Under the pieces are notes generated by a model. The model worked only from the letters and a program-made list of their open reading frames with translations. It made no database searches and was not told the DNA's origin. Position numbers and translations under genes: made by a program. Below are positions 8,702-48,898 of a DNA stretch of 59,913 nucleotides, piece by piece. The stretch comes from Candidatus Omnitrophota bacterium (GTDB lineage Bacteria; Omnitrophota; Gorgyraeia; Gygaellales; Profunditerraquicolaceae): the NCBI GenBank assembly GCA_903852325.1, contig CAINQO010000074.1:1-59913 (forward strand). The letters are read 5' to 3'. How positions within the stretch are numbered: the first letter of the stretch is position 1; the number at the start of each line of letters is the position of its first letter.

Positions 8702-9082
8702 ATGGCTGAGAAATTAGAAGAGATGATTAAATCTATCGAGACAATGACCGTGTTGGAGTTGTCCGACCTGGTTAAGGCTTTGGAAACAAAGTTCGGCGTA
8801 AGCGCCAATGTGGCCGTAGCCGCTGCTCCCGCAGCCGGTGGAGCCGCTGCTCCCGCCGCCGCTGAAGAGAAAAGTTCCTTCACTATAATGTTAACCAGCG
8901 CCGGAGCAAACAAGATCGCCGTAATTAAAGAGGTCCGTACGATCACTAACCTGGGTTTGAAGGAAGCCAAGGATTTAGTAGACGCCGCTCCTAAAGCGAT
9001 CAAAGAAGGCGTTAATAAAGAGGAATCTGCCGAGATAAAAAAGAAGCTGGAAGCTGCCGGCGCAACCGTTGAATTAAAGTAA
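8702..9082 (+). CDS. rplL: 50S ribosomal protein L7/L12
   Basis: [59 protein letters not shown]; start moved downstream to the ATG after AGGAGGAAATGA. Confidence 0.96.
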
Positions 9083-9187
9083 GTATAGTTAAGTCTAAGT
9101 AAGTTTAAGTAATAAAATTAAGTAATTAGCGGTAAATCTAAGTAAGTTTAATTAAGTTAACCAGGCTGATTCCCTAGCCTTAAGGAT

Positions 9188-12100
9188 ATGATTAAACGCA
9201 AAAACTTTGCCAAGATAAAAGAAGTTTATGAATTACCGGACCTCTTAGATGTGCAGTTGGATACTTACCGGGAATTTTTGCAGATGGATGTGCCCGCGGG
9301 AGAGAAAAAGAATCAGGGCCTGCAGGAAGTTTTCGGGGAAATCTTCCCGATCGAGAATTCTGATCGTTCCGTAAAGCTGGAATTTATCAGTTATTCTCTG
9401 GGTAAACCCAAGTACACCATGGGTGAATCTAAGAATCGTTCATTAACTTACGCCGCTCCTTTAAAAGTAAAATTCCGCCTGACGACTCCCAACGAAACTA
9501 AAGAGCAGGATGCTTATTTCGGGGAGATCCCTTTAATGACGGAAACCGGCACCTTTATTATTAATGGTGACGAACGCGTAGTGGTCAGCCAGCTGCAGCG
9601 TTCCCCGGGTGTTTCTTTTGAAGAAGAGCTGCATCCCACGGGAAAGAAGATATTCTACGGCCGGGTCATCCCTTACCGCGGAGCCTGGCTTGAATTTAAA
9701 TACGACCTTACCGAAACGATCACCGCTTACGTTGACCGGCGCAGGAATTTCCCCGCCACCCAGATCTTAAGGATCTTAGGTTTTTCCGAAGACAGCCAGA
9801 TTTTCGCCGCTTTCGGCAAAGAGCACCCGGAGATCGTCAATACCCTTAAAAAAGATTACACTAAAAATAAAGAAGAAGCCTACCTGGATTTTTACCGCAA
9901 GATGCGCCCCACTGAGCCGGTAACCAAAGAAGCCGCCGAAAGCCTTTTTTACCGTTTATTTTTTGACCCTGCCCGTTATGACCTGGAACGCGCGGGGCGT
10001 TTTATTTTAAACCGTAAATTGGGGATGGATGTTTCTTTGGAAAAAAGGATCCTGGATTCGGATACCGTAATTAAAGTTATCGAATATTTGATCAAACTCA
10101 ATGCCGGCACCGGCAAGATCGATGATATCGACCATTTAGGCAACCGCCGCGTAAAAAGCGTCGGGGAGCTGGTGCAGAACCAGGTACGCATCGGCCTTTC
10201 CCGCGTCGAGAGATCGATCAAGGAAAGATTGAGTATTTTGGGTGAATTCGATAATTTAAATGTGCATTATTTAATTAACTCCAAGCTTTTGAGCAATCAG
10301 ATCCGCGATTTCTTCGGCCGCAGCCAGTTATCTCAGTTTATGGATCAGATCAATCCTTTGGCTGAAATGACCCATAAACGCCGCCTGAGCGCTTTAGGCC
10401 CCGGTGGTTTATCGCGTGAGCGCGCCGGATTCGAGGTTAGGGATATTCACCCTTCGCATTACGGCAGGGTTTGCCCCATTGAGACTCCCGAAGGCCCGAA
10501 CATCGGCTTGATCGCTTCCTTAAGCTGTTTTGCCCGGATCAACGCTTTAGGTTTAATCGAAACCCCTTACCGTAAAGTTGAAGACGGAAGAGTAACTAAA
10601 AAATTCGAATACCTGACTGCCGATATCGAAGAGGATAAATATATCGCCCAGGCGGATGTCCCCCTGGATAGTGAGGGACGTTTTGTGGACAAATTTGTTA
10701 CCTGCCGCTATAAGGATGATTTTCCTAAAGTGCCGGGTAAGGATGTGCAGTATATGGATGTTTCCGCCAAGCAGTTGGTTTCCGTCGCCGCTTCAATGAT
10801 CCCGTTCTTAGAACATGATGATGCCAACCGCGCCCTGATGGGTTCAAACATGCAGCGCCAGGCCGTACCCTTAATGATCACTGAAGCTCCTTTAGTCGGC
10901 ACGGATATGGAAGCCAAAGTGGCCCAGGATTCCGGCACCGTGGTGATGTCTGAGGCAAGCGGAAAAGTAACCAGCGTGGATGCATCCGCCATTACTATCG
11001 GCAAAAAGATATACCACTTAAAGAAATTCTTACGGACCAATGCAGACACCTCGATCAACCAGAGGCCGTTGGTAAAATTAGGGGACCATGTTGAAGCCAA
11101 TCAGCCTATCGCCGACGGTATCGCTACCAAAGAAGGAGAACTGGCTTTAGGCAAGAATGTGCTGGTCGCTTTAATGCCCTGGAGAGGTTATAACTTCGAA
11201 GACGCGATCCTGATCAGCGAAAGATTGGTTAAGATCGATTCTTTTACTTCCATACATATCGAAGAGTTCGATATCGAAGCCGCCGAAACCCGGTTAGGCA
11301 ATGAAGAAATTACCCGGGATATTCCCAATGTCAGCGAGGAAGCCTTAAGGAACCTGGACGAGGAAGGGATCATCCGCGTCGGCGCCGAAGTTGCCGCCGG
11401 AGATATCCTGGTAGGGAAAATCACCCCGAAAACCGATTCCGAGCCCAGCCCTGAAGAAAGGTTGCTGCGGGCGATCTTCGGCGAAAAAGCCGGGGATGTG
11501 CGCGATACCTCTTTAATTGTCCCTCCCGGAGTCGAAGGGGTAGTGATCGACGTGCACGTTTTCCAGCGTAAGGACCGCGGCCGCAAGACCAAAGAAGAAA
11601 AAACCAAGGAACTGGCCAAGATCCGCGAATTAAAAGCTTATTATAAGCAGGAGATCGAATTCCTGCAGACCGAAAAAACTTTACGTTTATCCCAGGTGCT
11701 GGGTATTGATAAGAAAAAGGTAGAGAAGTTTGATCTAAGCGAGAATGAAGAAGCAAAAATTTTAGCCGCTTCTTTCGATGAGCAGATGCAGGAGCTTTTA
11801 GGTGAGGAAGAGCAGGAGATCGAAAAGGTCCGCCGCGGAGATGAACTGCCTACAGGTATTTTAAAAAGAGTGGTCGTTTATGTCGCCACTAAGCGTAAAC
11901 TTTCCGAAGGGGACAAGCTTGCCGGACGCCATGGAAATAAAGGTGTGGTCGCCCGGATAATCCCTGAAGAAAATATGCCTTATATGCCTGACGGCACCCC
12001 GGTAGATGTGGTTTTAAACCCGCTGGGCGTCCCATCGCGTATGAATGTCGGCCAGATCCTGGAATGTCACTTAGGCTGGGCGGCAAAATCCCTGGGCATG

Positions 12101-17013: not shown

Positions 17014-17021
17014 ATTAATCC

Positions 17022-17067
17022 CCCGCGCTTAAAGGAACCGCGCGGGTATGCCCTGATGGGCAAGGAG
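17022..17067 (+). repeat. Two-hairpin SD-adjacent element, copy A (upstream of rpsG)
   Basis: CCCGCGC[TTAAAGGAACC]GCGCGGG TA TGCCC[TGAT]GGGCA AGGAG. Confidence 0.75.
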
Positions 17068-17077
17068 TAAGGAAAGA

Positions 17078-17548
17078 ATGAGAAGAAGAAAAGCGCAGGA
17101 AAAAGTTATTTTAGCGGACCCCAAATATAACAGCAAGATCATCGCTAAGTTCATGAATATGATCATGGTCGACGGTAAAAAAGCGGTCGCCGAAAAACTG
17201 GTTTACAGCGCTTTTGATATCGTTTTGAAAAATTTAAACGAACAGGATATTTTGAAAGTGTTTTACAAGGCATTGGATAATGCCCGCCCGCGCTTAGAGG
17301 TTAAACCGCGCCGGGTCGGCGGTGCGACTTACCAGGTCCCGATCGAAGTCAGGCAGGAGCGCGGCACATCCATCGCCCTGCGCTGGATCAGGGATTTTGC
17401 CCAGAACCGCAAAGGCAAGCCGATGCAGGAAAAATTAGCCGACGAGATTATCGCCGCTTACAAGGGGGAAGGCGCGGCGATCAAAAAGAGAGACGATACC
17501 CATAAAATGGCTGAATCAAATAAGGCCTACGCACATTTCAGGTGGTAA
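17078..17548 (+). CDS. rpsG: 30S ribosomal protein S7
   Basis: MRRRKAQEKVILADPKYNSKIIAKFMNMIMVDGKK; GGATYQVPIEVR. Confidence 0.97.
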   Translation: MRRRKAQEKVILADPKYNSKIIAKFMNMIMVDGKKAVAEKLVYSAFDIVLKNLNEQDILKVFYKALDNARPRLEVKPRRVGGATYQVPIEVRQERGTSIALRWIRDFAQNRKGKPMQEKLADEIIAAYKGEGAAIKKRDDTHKMAESNKAYAHFRW

Positions 17549-24325: not shown

Positions 24326-25057
24326 ATGGGTCATAAGGTAAGTCCTTTATTATTAAGGATCGGTTTTATAAGGCAATGGCATTCGCGTTGGTTTGCTAAA
24401 CCCAAAGATTTTCCTGCGTTCATTATGCAGGATTATAAGATCAGAAAATTCATTAAGAGCAAGTTTAAGCAAGCGGCGATCTCCAAGATCGTGGTGGAGA
24501 GATTAGCGGAACGGATTAAAGTCCGCATATTTTCCGCCCGCCCGGGGATCATCATCGGCCGTCACGGTTCGGATATCGAACGCCTGCGTTCGGATTTGAA
24601 TGGTCTGGTAAAGAATGAGTTGTCCATCGACATCCAGGAAGTGAATAATCCTACCTGGGATGCGCAGCTGGTGGCTGAAAATATCGCCTTGCAGCAGGAA
24701 AAAAGGATCGCTTTCCGCCGGGCAGTGAAAAGGGCGATGGAACAGTCCATTCAGACCGGGGTAAAAGGGATCCGCGTGTGCTGTTCCGGCCGGCTTAACG
24801 GGGCGGAAATGGGCCGCAAAGAAACTTACCGCATGGGCAAAATCCCCCTGCAGACTTTACGCGCCGATATTGACTATGGTTTTGCCGAAGCTTTGACCAC
24901 TTATGGCTTGATCGGGGTCAAGGTTTGGATCTATAAGGGAGATATCCTGGGGAAACAATTTGTCCAGGAAGATACTAAACCCGTACAGCAGCCCGGGGCA
25001 CCCAAAGACCCGTCCCGGCAGCGGCCGCCAATGGGTAGACAAGACGCCCAGCGCTAA
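24326..25057 (+). CDS. rpsC: 30S ribosomal protein S3
   Basis: MGHKVSPLLLRIGFIRQWHSRWFA, ARPGIIIGRHGSDIERL, RMGKIPLQTLRADIDYG. Confidence 0.97.
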   Translation: MGHKVSPLLLRIGFIRQWHSRWFAKPKDFPAFIMQDYKIRKFIKSKFKQAAISKIVVERLAERIKVRIFSARPGIIIGRHGSDIERLRSDLNGLVKNELSIDIQEVNNPTWDAQLVAENIALQQEKRIAFRRAVKRAMEQSIQTGVKGIRVCCSGRLNGAEMGRKETYRMGKIPLQTLRADIDYGFAEALTTYGLIGVKVWIYKGDILGKQFVQEDTKPVQQPGAPKDPSRQRPPMGRQDAQR

Positions 25058-25094
25058 AAGGTATTGCGTTGGCATTATCTAGGTAGATAAGGAG
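25048..25094 (+). repeat. Two-hairpin SD-adjacent element, copy B (upstream of rplP)
   Basis: CCAGCGC[TAAAAGGTATT]GCGTTGG CA TTATCT[AGGT]AGATAA GGAG. Confidence 0.78.
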
Positions 25095-33516: not shown

Positions 33517-33518
33517 AA

Positions 33519-33569
33519 CACCCGCTGCCGACTAAGTATTGCGCCGGTGTTATCTAGGTAGATAAGGAG
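33519..33569 (+). repeat. Two-hairpin SD-adjacent element, copy C (upstream of rpsK; first stem partly degenerate)
   Basis: CACCCGCTGCCGACTAAGTATTGCGCCGGTG TTATCT[AGGT]AGATAA GGAG; the second hairpin plus SD is identical to copy B. Confidence 0.7.
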
Positions 33570-48581: not shown

Positions 48582-48638
48582 TTTAGGAAAATCGGTTGAC
48601 AAATAAATTCTGGGTGTTAAGGTAAAAGCATAATTTGG

Positions 48639-48846
48639 AATATAGGTTAAGGGAAATCCAAGTAGAGGGTAAGCACCCGGCGCTTAAAGGTATTACGCCG
48701 GTGTAGGCCTCTGCCTAAGGATGCGGTCCCGCCGCTGTAAAGGTTGACGAAAGCTCCAGATATCAGGCCACTGTTCTGACCAGGTCAGGATGGGAAGACC
48801 AAGGAGTAAATAGGATGAGACCTGAGCCAGAAGACCTGCCTATATT
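48639..48846 (+). ncRNA. Cobalamin riboswitch 1 (upstream of btuF)
   Basis: P1 AATATAGG/CCTATATT, GGGAA, GCGGTCCCGCCGCTGTAA, B12 box GAGCCAGAAGACCTGCC. Confidence 0.92.
48674..48722 (+). repeat. Two-hairpin element, copy D (inside cobalamin riboswitch 1)
   Basis: CACCCGGCGC[TTAAAGGTATT]ACGCCGG TG TAGGC[CTCT]GCCTA AGGAT. Confidence 0.65.
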
Positions 48847-48898
48847 AAACAGGTAAAGTAACGCCTCGCGGAATGGGCCAGAGTAAATACAGGGTGAA

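Follow-up and report, generated by a model that had tools for sequence, protein, structure and literature searches.

REP/REPIN-BIME repeats, which are moved by RAYT (TnpA_REP), are short imperfect extragenic palindromes present in tens of copies, which occur as singlets, inverted pairs and clusters and also insert into other palindromes (PMC3116915, PMC2817692, PMC3733652, PMC6006769). Palindromic families without a linked transposase have been described as well, namely the CGTC-tagged REPs and the repeats resembling the Rickettsia palindromic element (PMC3733652). Members of IS200/IS605 and the short elements derived from them carry a hairpin at each end, have no terminal inverted repeats and insert 3' of a fixed short motif, and hairpin-ended elements of this sort are the hallmark of Y1 transposases (PMC6006769). 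The TAACTGA repeats of Beggiatoaceae are dispersed just 5' of start codons, including those of ribosomal protein operons (PMC4679880); they are heptanucleotide direct repeats that lack hairpins and replace the Shine-Dalgarno sequence, whereas the element described here re-forms it.

The DNA analysed (the window) is a stretch of 59,913 nt from a Candidatus Omnitrophota bacterium (contig CAINQO010000074.1). A first-pass annotation made from the letters had proposed that a two-hairpin element upstream of rpsG is the first member of an undescribed repeat family, with the same layout recurring at 25048, 33519 and 48674. A covariance model (R1) was built from nine aligned sequences, i.e. copies A and D plus seven further genomic copies, with B and C excluded. 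The features located in the window are the following.

17018..17065, plus strand: copy A, between rpsL and rpsG (R1 cmsearch 61.5 bits, E 7.7e-13; part of the R1 training set)
17022..17046, plus strand: hairpin 1 of copy A, CCCGCGC-TTAAAGGAACC-GCGCGGG (from sequence, fold and helix 1 covariation)
17049..17062, plus strand: hairpin 2 of copy A, TGCCC-TGAT-GGGCA (from sequence, fold and helix 2 covariation)
17062..17067, plus strand: AAGGAG, the rpsG Shine-Dalgarno sequence, at the 3' junction of copy A (from sequence and the junction rule at other sites)
25046..25092, plus strand: copy B, between rpsC (S3) and rplP (L16) (R1 31.4 bits, E 1.2e-5; outside the training set; genes by Pfam)
33518..33567, plus strand: copy C, decayed, between rpsM (S13) and rpsK (S11) (R1 13.4 bits, E 0.22; genes by Pfam)
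48627..48857, plus strand: cobalamin riboswitch RF00174 that hosts copy D (cmscan 63 bits, gathering threshold 31.5)
48673..48720, plus strand: copy D, in the terminal loop of riboswitch P4 (R1 70.3 bits, E 6e-15; part of the training set)

The layout given for copy A (7-bp stem, 11-nt loop, 2-nt linker, 5-bp hairpin and Shine-Dalgarno sequence) is exact: CCCGCGC (17022-17028), the loop TTAAAGGAACC (17029-17039) and GCGCGGG (17040-17046) are separated by the linker TA from hairpin 2, and the ATG of rpsG lies 3' of the copy at 17078. Copy B has AAGGAG at 25089-25094 and contains the rpsC stop codon (TAA, 25055-25057) in the loop of its hairpin 1, meaning that the C-terminal residues of S3 are specified by the copy. 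TAA or TAG is found in many hairpin-1 loops of the family, although not in all. Copy C, with AAGGAG at 33564-33569, has a mismatched first stem and the loop CGACTAAGTATT, and over 34 nt of its 3' half it shares 88% identity with copy B, including an exact 20-nt match (TTATCTAGGTAGATAAGGAG); judged by its sequence, it is a decayed family member. The proposed recurrence is clear by R1 for copies B and D and weak for C. In a separate part of the window (9072-9155), a degenerate A/T-rich tandem repeat with a unit of ~43 nt lies 5' of a large gene at 9188.

The first-pass annotation is right about copy A and about the existence of a family. The layout taken by itself does not exceed chance: two adjacent hairpins, with G-U pairs allowed, occur 11 times on the plus strand of the window and 7-14 times per strand in shuffled windows. 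As the bare layout is common by chance, the argument depends on sequence and structure combined, together with copy number and position, which do exceed chance. The sequence TTAAAGGTATTGCGCCGGTG was found 8 times genome-wide with up to 3 mismatches, compared with one occurrence for the reversed control, and R1 detected 35 matches at E<=1 in the genome of the window. Further copies, expected from the first description, are also present in relatives and across the phylum: according to R1, 46/58 relatives carry the family, with a maximum of 71 copies in one genome, and 53/236 evenly sampled Omnitrophota genomes are positive at E<=0.001. Most of these positive genomes belong to the taxonomic family of the window, and a dozen further families have sporadic copies. 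Within the genus there are 2-71 copies per genome, fewer than in typical REP families, and the complete genome of Candidatus Velamenicoccus archaeovorus contains 17 matches ranging from weak to strong. No match to Rfam was obtained for copy A or for a further copy (L111) even at E<=10, the best score being 12.4 bits against a gathering threshold of 42, in agreement with an undescribed family.

The consensus unit is about 46-50 nt long (~48) and consists of two directly abutting hairpins. Hairpin 1 reads [A/G]CACCC-SGCGC-(11-12 nt loop T-T/A-A-n-n-GG-A/T-ATT)-GCGC-SGGTG, hairpin 2 has 5-6 bp and a 4-nt loop, with a sequence that varies freely yet remains paired, and the unit ends in AAG. Compensatory change in the helices, already suspected from the four copies of the window, proved to be strong. 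In an alignment of 101 distinct copies, which was fitted to the model and leans towards it, 97.5% of the cells are paired and changes on both sides affect 227 cells vs 64±6 in shuffles; when the partner was shifted by one column in this model-fitted alignment, pairing fell to 25-35%. A model-independent test was provided by scanning 85,462 prokaryote species genomes with an exact pattern for hairpin 1 only, and since hairpin 2 was left out of the pattern, this test is free of the bias of the fitted alignment. Among the matches listed, hairpin 2 is present in 115/118 copies picked by hairpin 1 alone and has at least 5 bp directly after hairpin 1 in 108/118, vs 11% at random places, with at least 86 different hairpin 2 sequences in the 118 copies; all 80 of the 80 records among these matches are Omnitrophota. 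When 800 kb of G019, a genome of the same genus, were scanned for hairpin 1 without hairpin 2 (C1:40000-112000 masked), every family copy recovered had hairpin 2, and no trace of a longer autonomous element was found in this sequence.

Across 27 congeners, the rpsL-rpsG junction carries the element in the forward orientation in 4 (G000, G019, G016 and G009) and in reverse in 2 (G021 and G001), while the others lack it or have no recognisable copy; in one further locus of this kind (G017) the beginning of the gene is missing. G006 and G016, whose sequences at this locus are ~96% identical, provide two pairs of filled and empty sites. At the first, TTACAAG[ACACCC..GACAAG]GAGAATG corresponds to the empty TTACAAGGAGAATG (in the longer form, TTACAAG[ACACCCCGCGC...GTAGACAAG]GAGAATGTTATG vs TTACAAGGAGAATGTTATG), and at the second, GGAAG[ACACCC..GACAAG]AATATGG corresponds to the empty GGAAGAATATGG (in the longer form, TTAAGGAAG[ACACCC...GACAAG]AATATGG vs TTAAGGAAGAATATGG). 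Additional sites that are empty or much reduced were identified between G019 and G020, for example AAATTAAATAG[CACCCC...CCAAG]GAGGGCG vs AAATTAAATAGGGGGAGGG and TCTAAGCA[ACACCC..GGGCA]AGGAGG vs TCTAATCAGGAGG, and in several genome pairs the counterpart is a deletion remnant or diverged sequence and not a clean empty site. The ACACCC...GACAAG unit stands after the AAG of AAGGAG, and the Shine-Dalgarno sequence is re-formed. Given the AAG shared by both ends, the exact ends of the unit are ambiguous, and a short target duplication is indistinguishable from an AAG borne by the element. In a G019 subfamily (GTGTGCCC..GGGCAAGGAG) the cut may be shifted, as the left flank is often TA or CA instead of AAG.

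The same (N)AG rule is obeyed by tandem copies, AAG[unit..AAG][unit..AAG]GAG, and by copies nested in the hairpin-1 loops of others (L020, L021, L112-L114 and Candidatus Velamenicoccus archaeovorus); overall, the copies are arranged as singlets, inverted pairs and arrays. A compound form with four hairpins, in which the inner copy occupies a near-constant place in the loop of the outer one, recurs in several genomes (L204, L206, L224 and L398-L412) and may move as a unit, considering that it is near-identical at two different loci (L112 and L113). Several other features were recorded beside copies of the element. A second short palindrome, approximately CCTGCCTGCCGGCAGGCAGG, lies inside or next to copies at L434 (G020), L124 and L140 (G016) and L397 (Ca. 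Velamenicoccus). A repeat, GTCGACTTCGCTCAGGGTCATCCTGAGC...GTGTCGAAGG, surrounds a copy 5' of rpsG in G016 (L125 / L089), and a similar repeat is located 5' of rpsG in G014 (L104). At L117 (G006:C100:878-2008) two identical copies precede a pair of small, near-identical ORFs that read VKRERELKTKKKWDKPKLIILTRGKPEESVLVSCK... and may represent tandemly duplicated peptide precursors.

The preference for ribosome-binding sites is evident from the Omnitrophota records among the matches listed, in which AG stands directly 5' of 63/118 copies (5.7% expected, p=3e-46), GG[AG] follows hairpin 2 within 4 nt in 69/118, and a Shine-Dalgarno-like motif within 30 nt is followed by a start codon, mostly 6-10 nt after the motif, in 74/118. 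In the 800 kb of G019, 0/38 copies fall within ORFs of 150 aa or longer, and 116/149 non-coding AAGGAG sites are in Shine-Dalgarno position. An AAG^G target together with the loss of coding insertions would account for the concentration at ribosome-binding sites, without requiring recognition of translation initiation sites; given the 116/149 proportion, special recognition of the Shine-Dalgarno sequence beyond AAGG is unneeded. Strand bias was also considered as a mark of replication-linked insertion and is uninformative, with genes distributed 309+/13- on the tiled part of C1.

Copy D is present where the first-pass annotation had placed it, though not upstream of a start codon: it is an insertion in the cobalamin riboswitch that precedes a Peripla_BP_2 / FecCD gene pair (Pfam). 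That description recognised neither this nor that the Shine-Dalgarno sequence is itself the site of insertion. With copy D the P4 loop measures 59 nt, vs 9 in the RF00174 model. In most congeners this loop is short, e.g. CCGTATAATCGG in G006, and it is filled by the element in G016, G013, G011 and probably G021, so that the same pair of ~96% identical genomes includes an empty (G006) and a filled (G016) riboswitch. The aptamer still exceeds the gathering threshold in all of these riboswitches; the element is an optional insert of the P4 loop and not a part of the aptamer. The flanks of copy D, CCAAGTAGAGGGTAAG[...]GATGCGG, are unlike those in G016, which suggests that the two P4 copies derive from separate insertions.

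Taken as a whole, the evidence makes it very probable that the members of the family are small palindromic repeats, mobile but non-autonomous (REP/MITE-like), which target AAG^G, and hence mostly Shine-Dalgarno sequences among non-coding sites. Dispersal, conserved structure, presence/absence, empty and filled sites, precise junctions, the target motif and the regeneration of the Shine-Dalgarno sequence are observed directly in these genomes. Between the two options left by the first-pass annotation, a functional RNA or a mobile unit selected for structure, presence/absence, reversal, empty sites and tandem or nested copies favor the latter, the former being less supported. In the proposed mechanism the unit would insert after (N)AG, most often AAG^G, and surviving copies would lie mostly in Shine-Dalgarno sequences since most non-coding AAGGAG sites of these genomes are of this type; the AAG at the 3' end of the unit would re-form AAGGAG, so that the downstream gene would not lose its ribosome-binding site, making the insertion nearly neutral. 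Tandem arrays, copies nested in loops and copy D in the riboswitch loop could all be produced by the same (N)AG rule. The unit may travel as a single folded strand, mobilised in trans by an enzyme whose gene lies elsewhere. The element is of a known kind, palindromic repeats without a known transposase (PMC3733652), with an unusual target, and neither this family nor any repeat that re-forms the Shine-Dalgarno sequence into which it inserts was found described in the open-access literature searched. It differs from the CGTC-tagged and Rickettsia palindromic element-like repeats in being a phylum-specific two-hairpin unit with a Shine-Dalgarno junction, and its consensus ends lack the terminal unpaired CGTC. 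Terminal inverted repeats with a target-site duplication of fixed length, expected of MITEs derived from DDE transposons, are also absent, as ACACCC at one end of the unit and ACAAG at the other do not form an inverted repeat and only AAG is common to both ends.

The possibility that these are true REPs/REPINs, mobilised by a REP-associated Y1 transposase (RAYT) from the same genome, is considered unlikely. Having hairpin ends and no inverted repeats, and inserting 3' of a short motif, the element makes Y1 transposases the obvious candidates, and Y1 genes are present in every genome of the genus searched (only one, cut by the contig end, in the window's own genome); furthermore, the repeats are palindromic and extragenic, reach tens of copies per genome and occur as singlets, inverted pairs and arrays. 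However, R1 detected no copy in the flanks (about 1.5 kb) of ~50 Y1 loci. The three RAYT genes of G019 have other flanks, two of them with unrelated inverted repeats (GGGGACGTCC and CTGTTTCCCGATT). In addition, GTAG/GTGG does not stand 0-2 nt 5' of the hairpin foot (PMC6006769), where the left context is (N)AG|ACACCC, and the two stacked hairpins carry a loop of 11 nt and not of 2-5 nt (PMC6006769, PMC3733652). The 3' end of the element, CAAG, resembles its target motif as in IS200/IS605, but its hairpins begin at the very ends, leaving no room for a guide, no guide tetranucleotide was found by sequence 5' of a subterminal hairpin, and no tnpA/tnpB was found alongside. The link to RAYT fails on these grounds. 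These RAYT-like genes of G019 (C2 ~84.5, ~117.5 and ~160.2 kb) have their own short flanking sequences (GGGGACGTCC, GGGACAGCGACCATTTTT and CTGTTTCCCGATT) and look like ordinary RAYT-REP systems of the same genus.

A functional cis-regulatory RNA spread by selection for regulation, such as a translational leader resembling a CsrA target with an ANGGA-like loop and a Shine-Dalgarno sequence, appears still less probable. Placement and orientation 5' of start codons, conserved structure and a conserved loop, with ANGGA in some cases, agree with this proposal, which is countered by the lack of the element at the same gene in most congeners and its reversal in two, by unrelated downstream genes and by copies nested in one another, lying in a riboswitch loop or next to a tRNA. 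Moreover, the predicted accessibility of the Shine-Dalgarno sequence in 11 element leaders, the only ones compared, is like that of other leaders (0.53 vs 0.46, p=0.28). ANGGA is not conserved and many loops lack it, and a CsrA-type site was rejected. Concerning the copy that adjoins an apparent tRNA gene (L205 7642-7691, G019), its hairpin 2 may include the 5' end of the tRNA. Autoregulation by ribosomal protein S7 in the str mRNA, suggested by the position of copy A between rpsL and rpsG and already discounted for the family in the first-pass annotation, is refuted by the absence of the element at most of the 27 congener junctions and by the many unrelated genes preceded by it, and its probability is close to nil.

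A machinery other than RAYT or IS200/IS605 might read the AAG^G core of the Shine-Dalgarno sequence in single-stranded DNA or mRNA while the element's own AAG rebuilds the site, which would represent a host-neutral niche and a new mechanism of transposition; this is a tentative proposal. The finding explains recurrent short intergenic hairpins of Omnitrophota without assuming regulation and cautions against taking them for ribosomal protein leaders. It also raises the question of the enzyme that brings a hairpin pair of 48 nt to AAG^G, and it indicates that a peripheral loop of a riboswitch can receive such an insertion, which has apparently happened more than once. In genomes that are ~93% coding, the ribosome-binding site is among the few places where a small insert survives. 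By inserting at this position and re-forming it, the element takes direct advantage of that niche, even in ribosomal protein operons and 5' of tuf.
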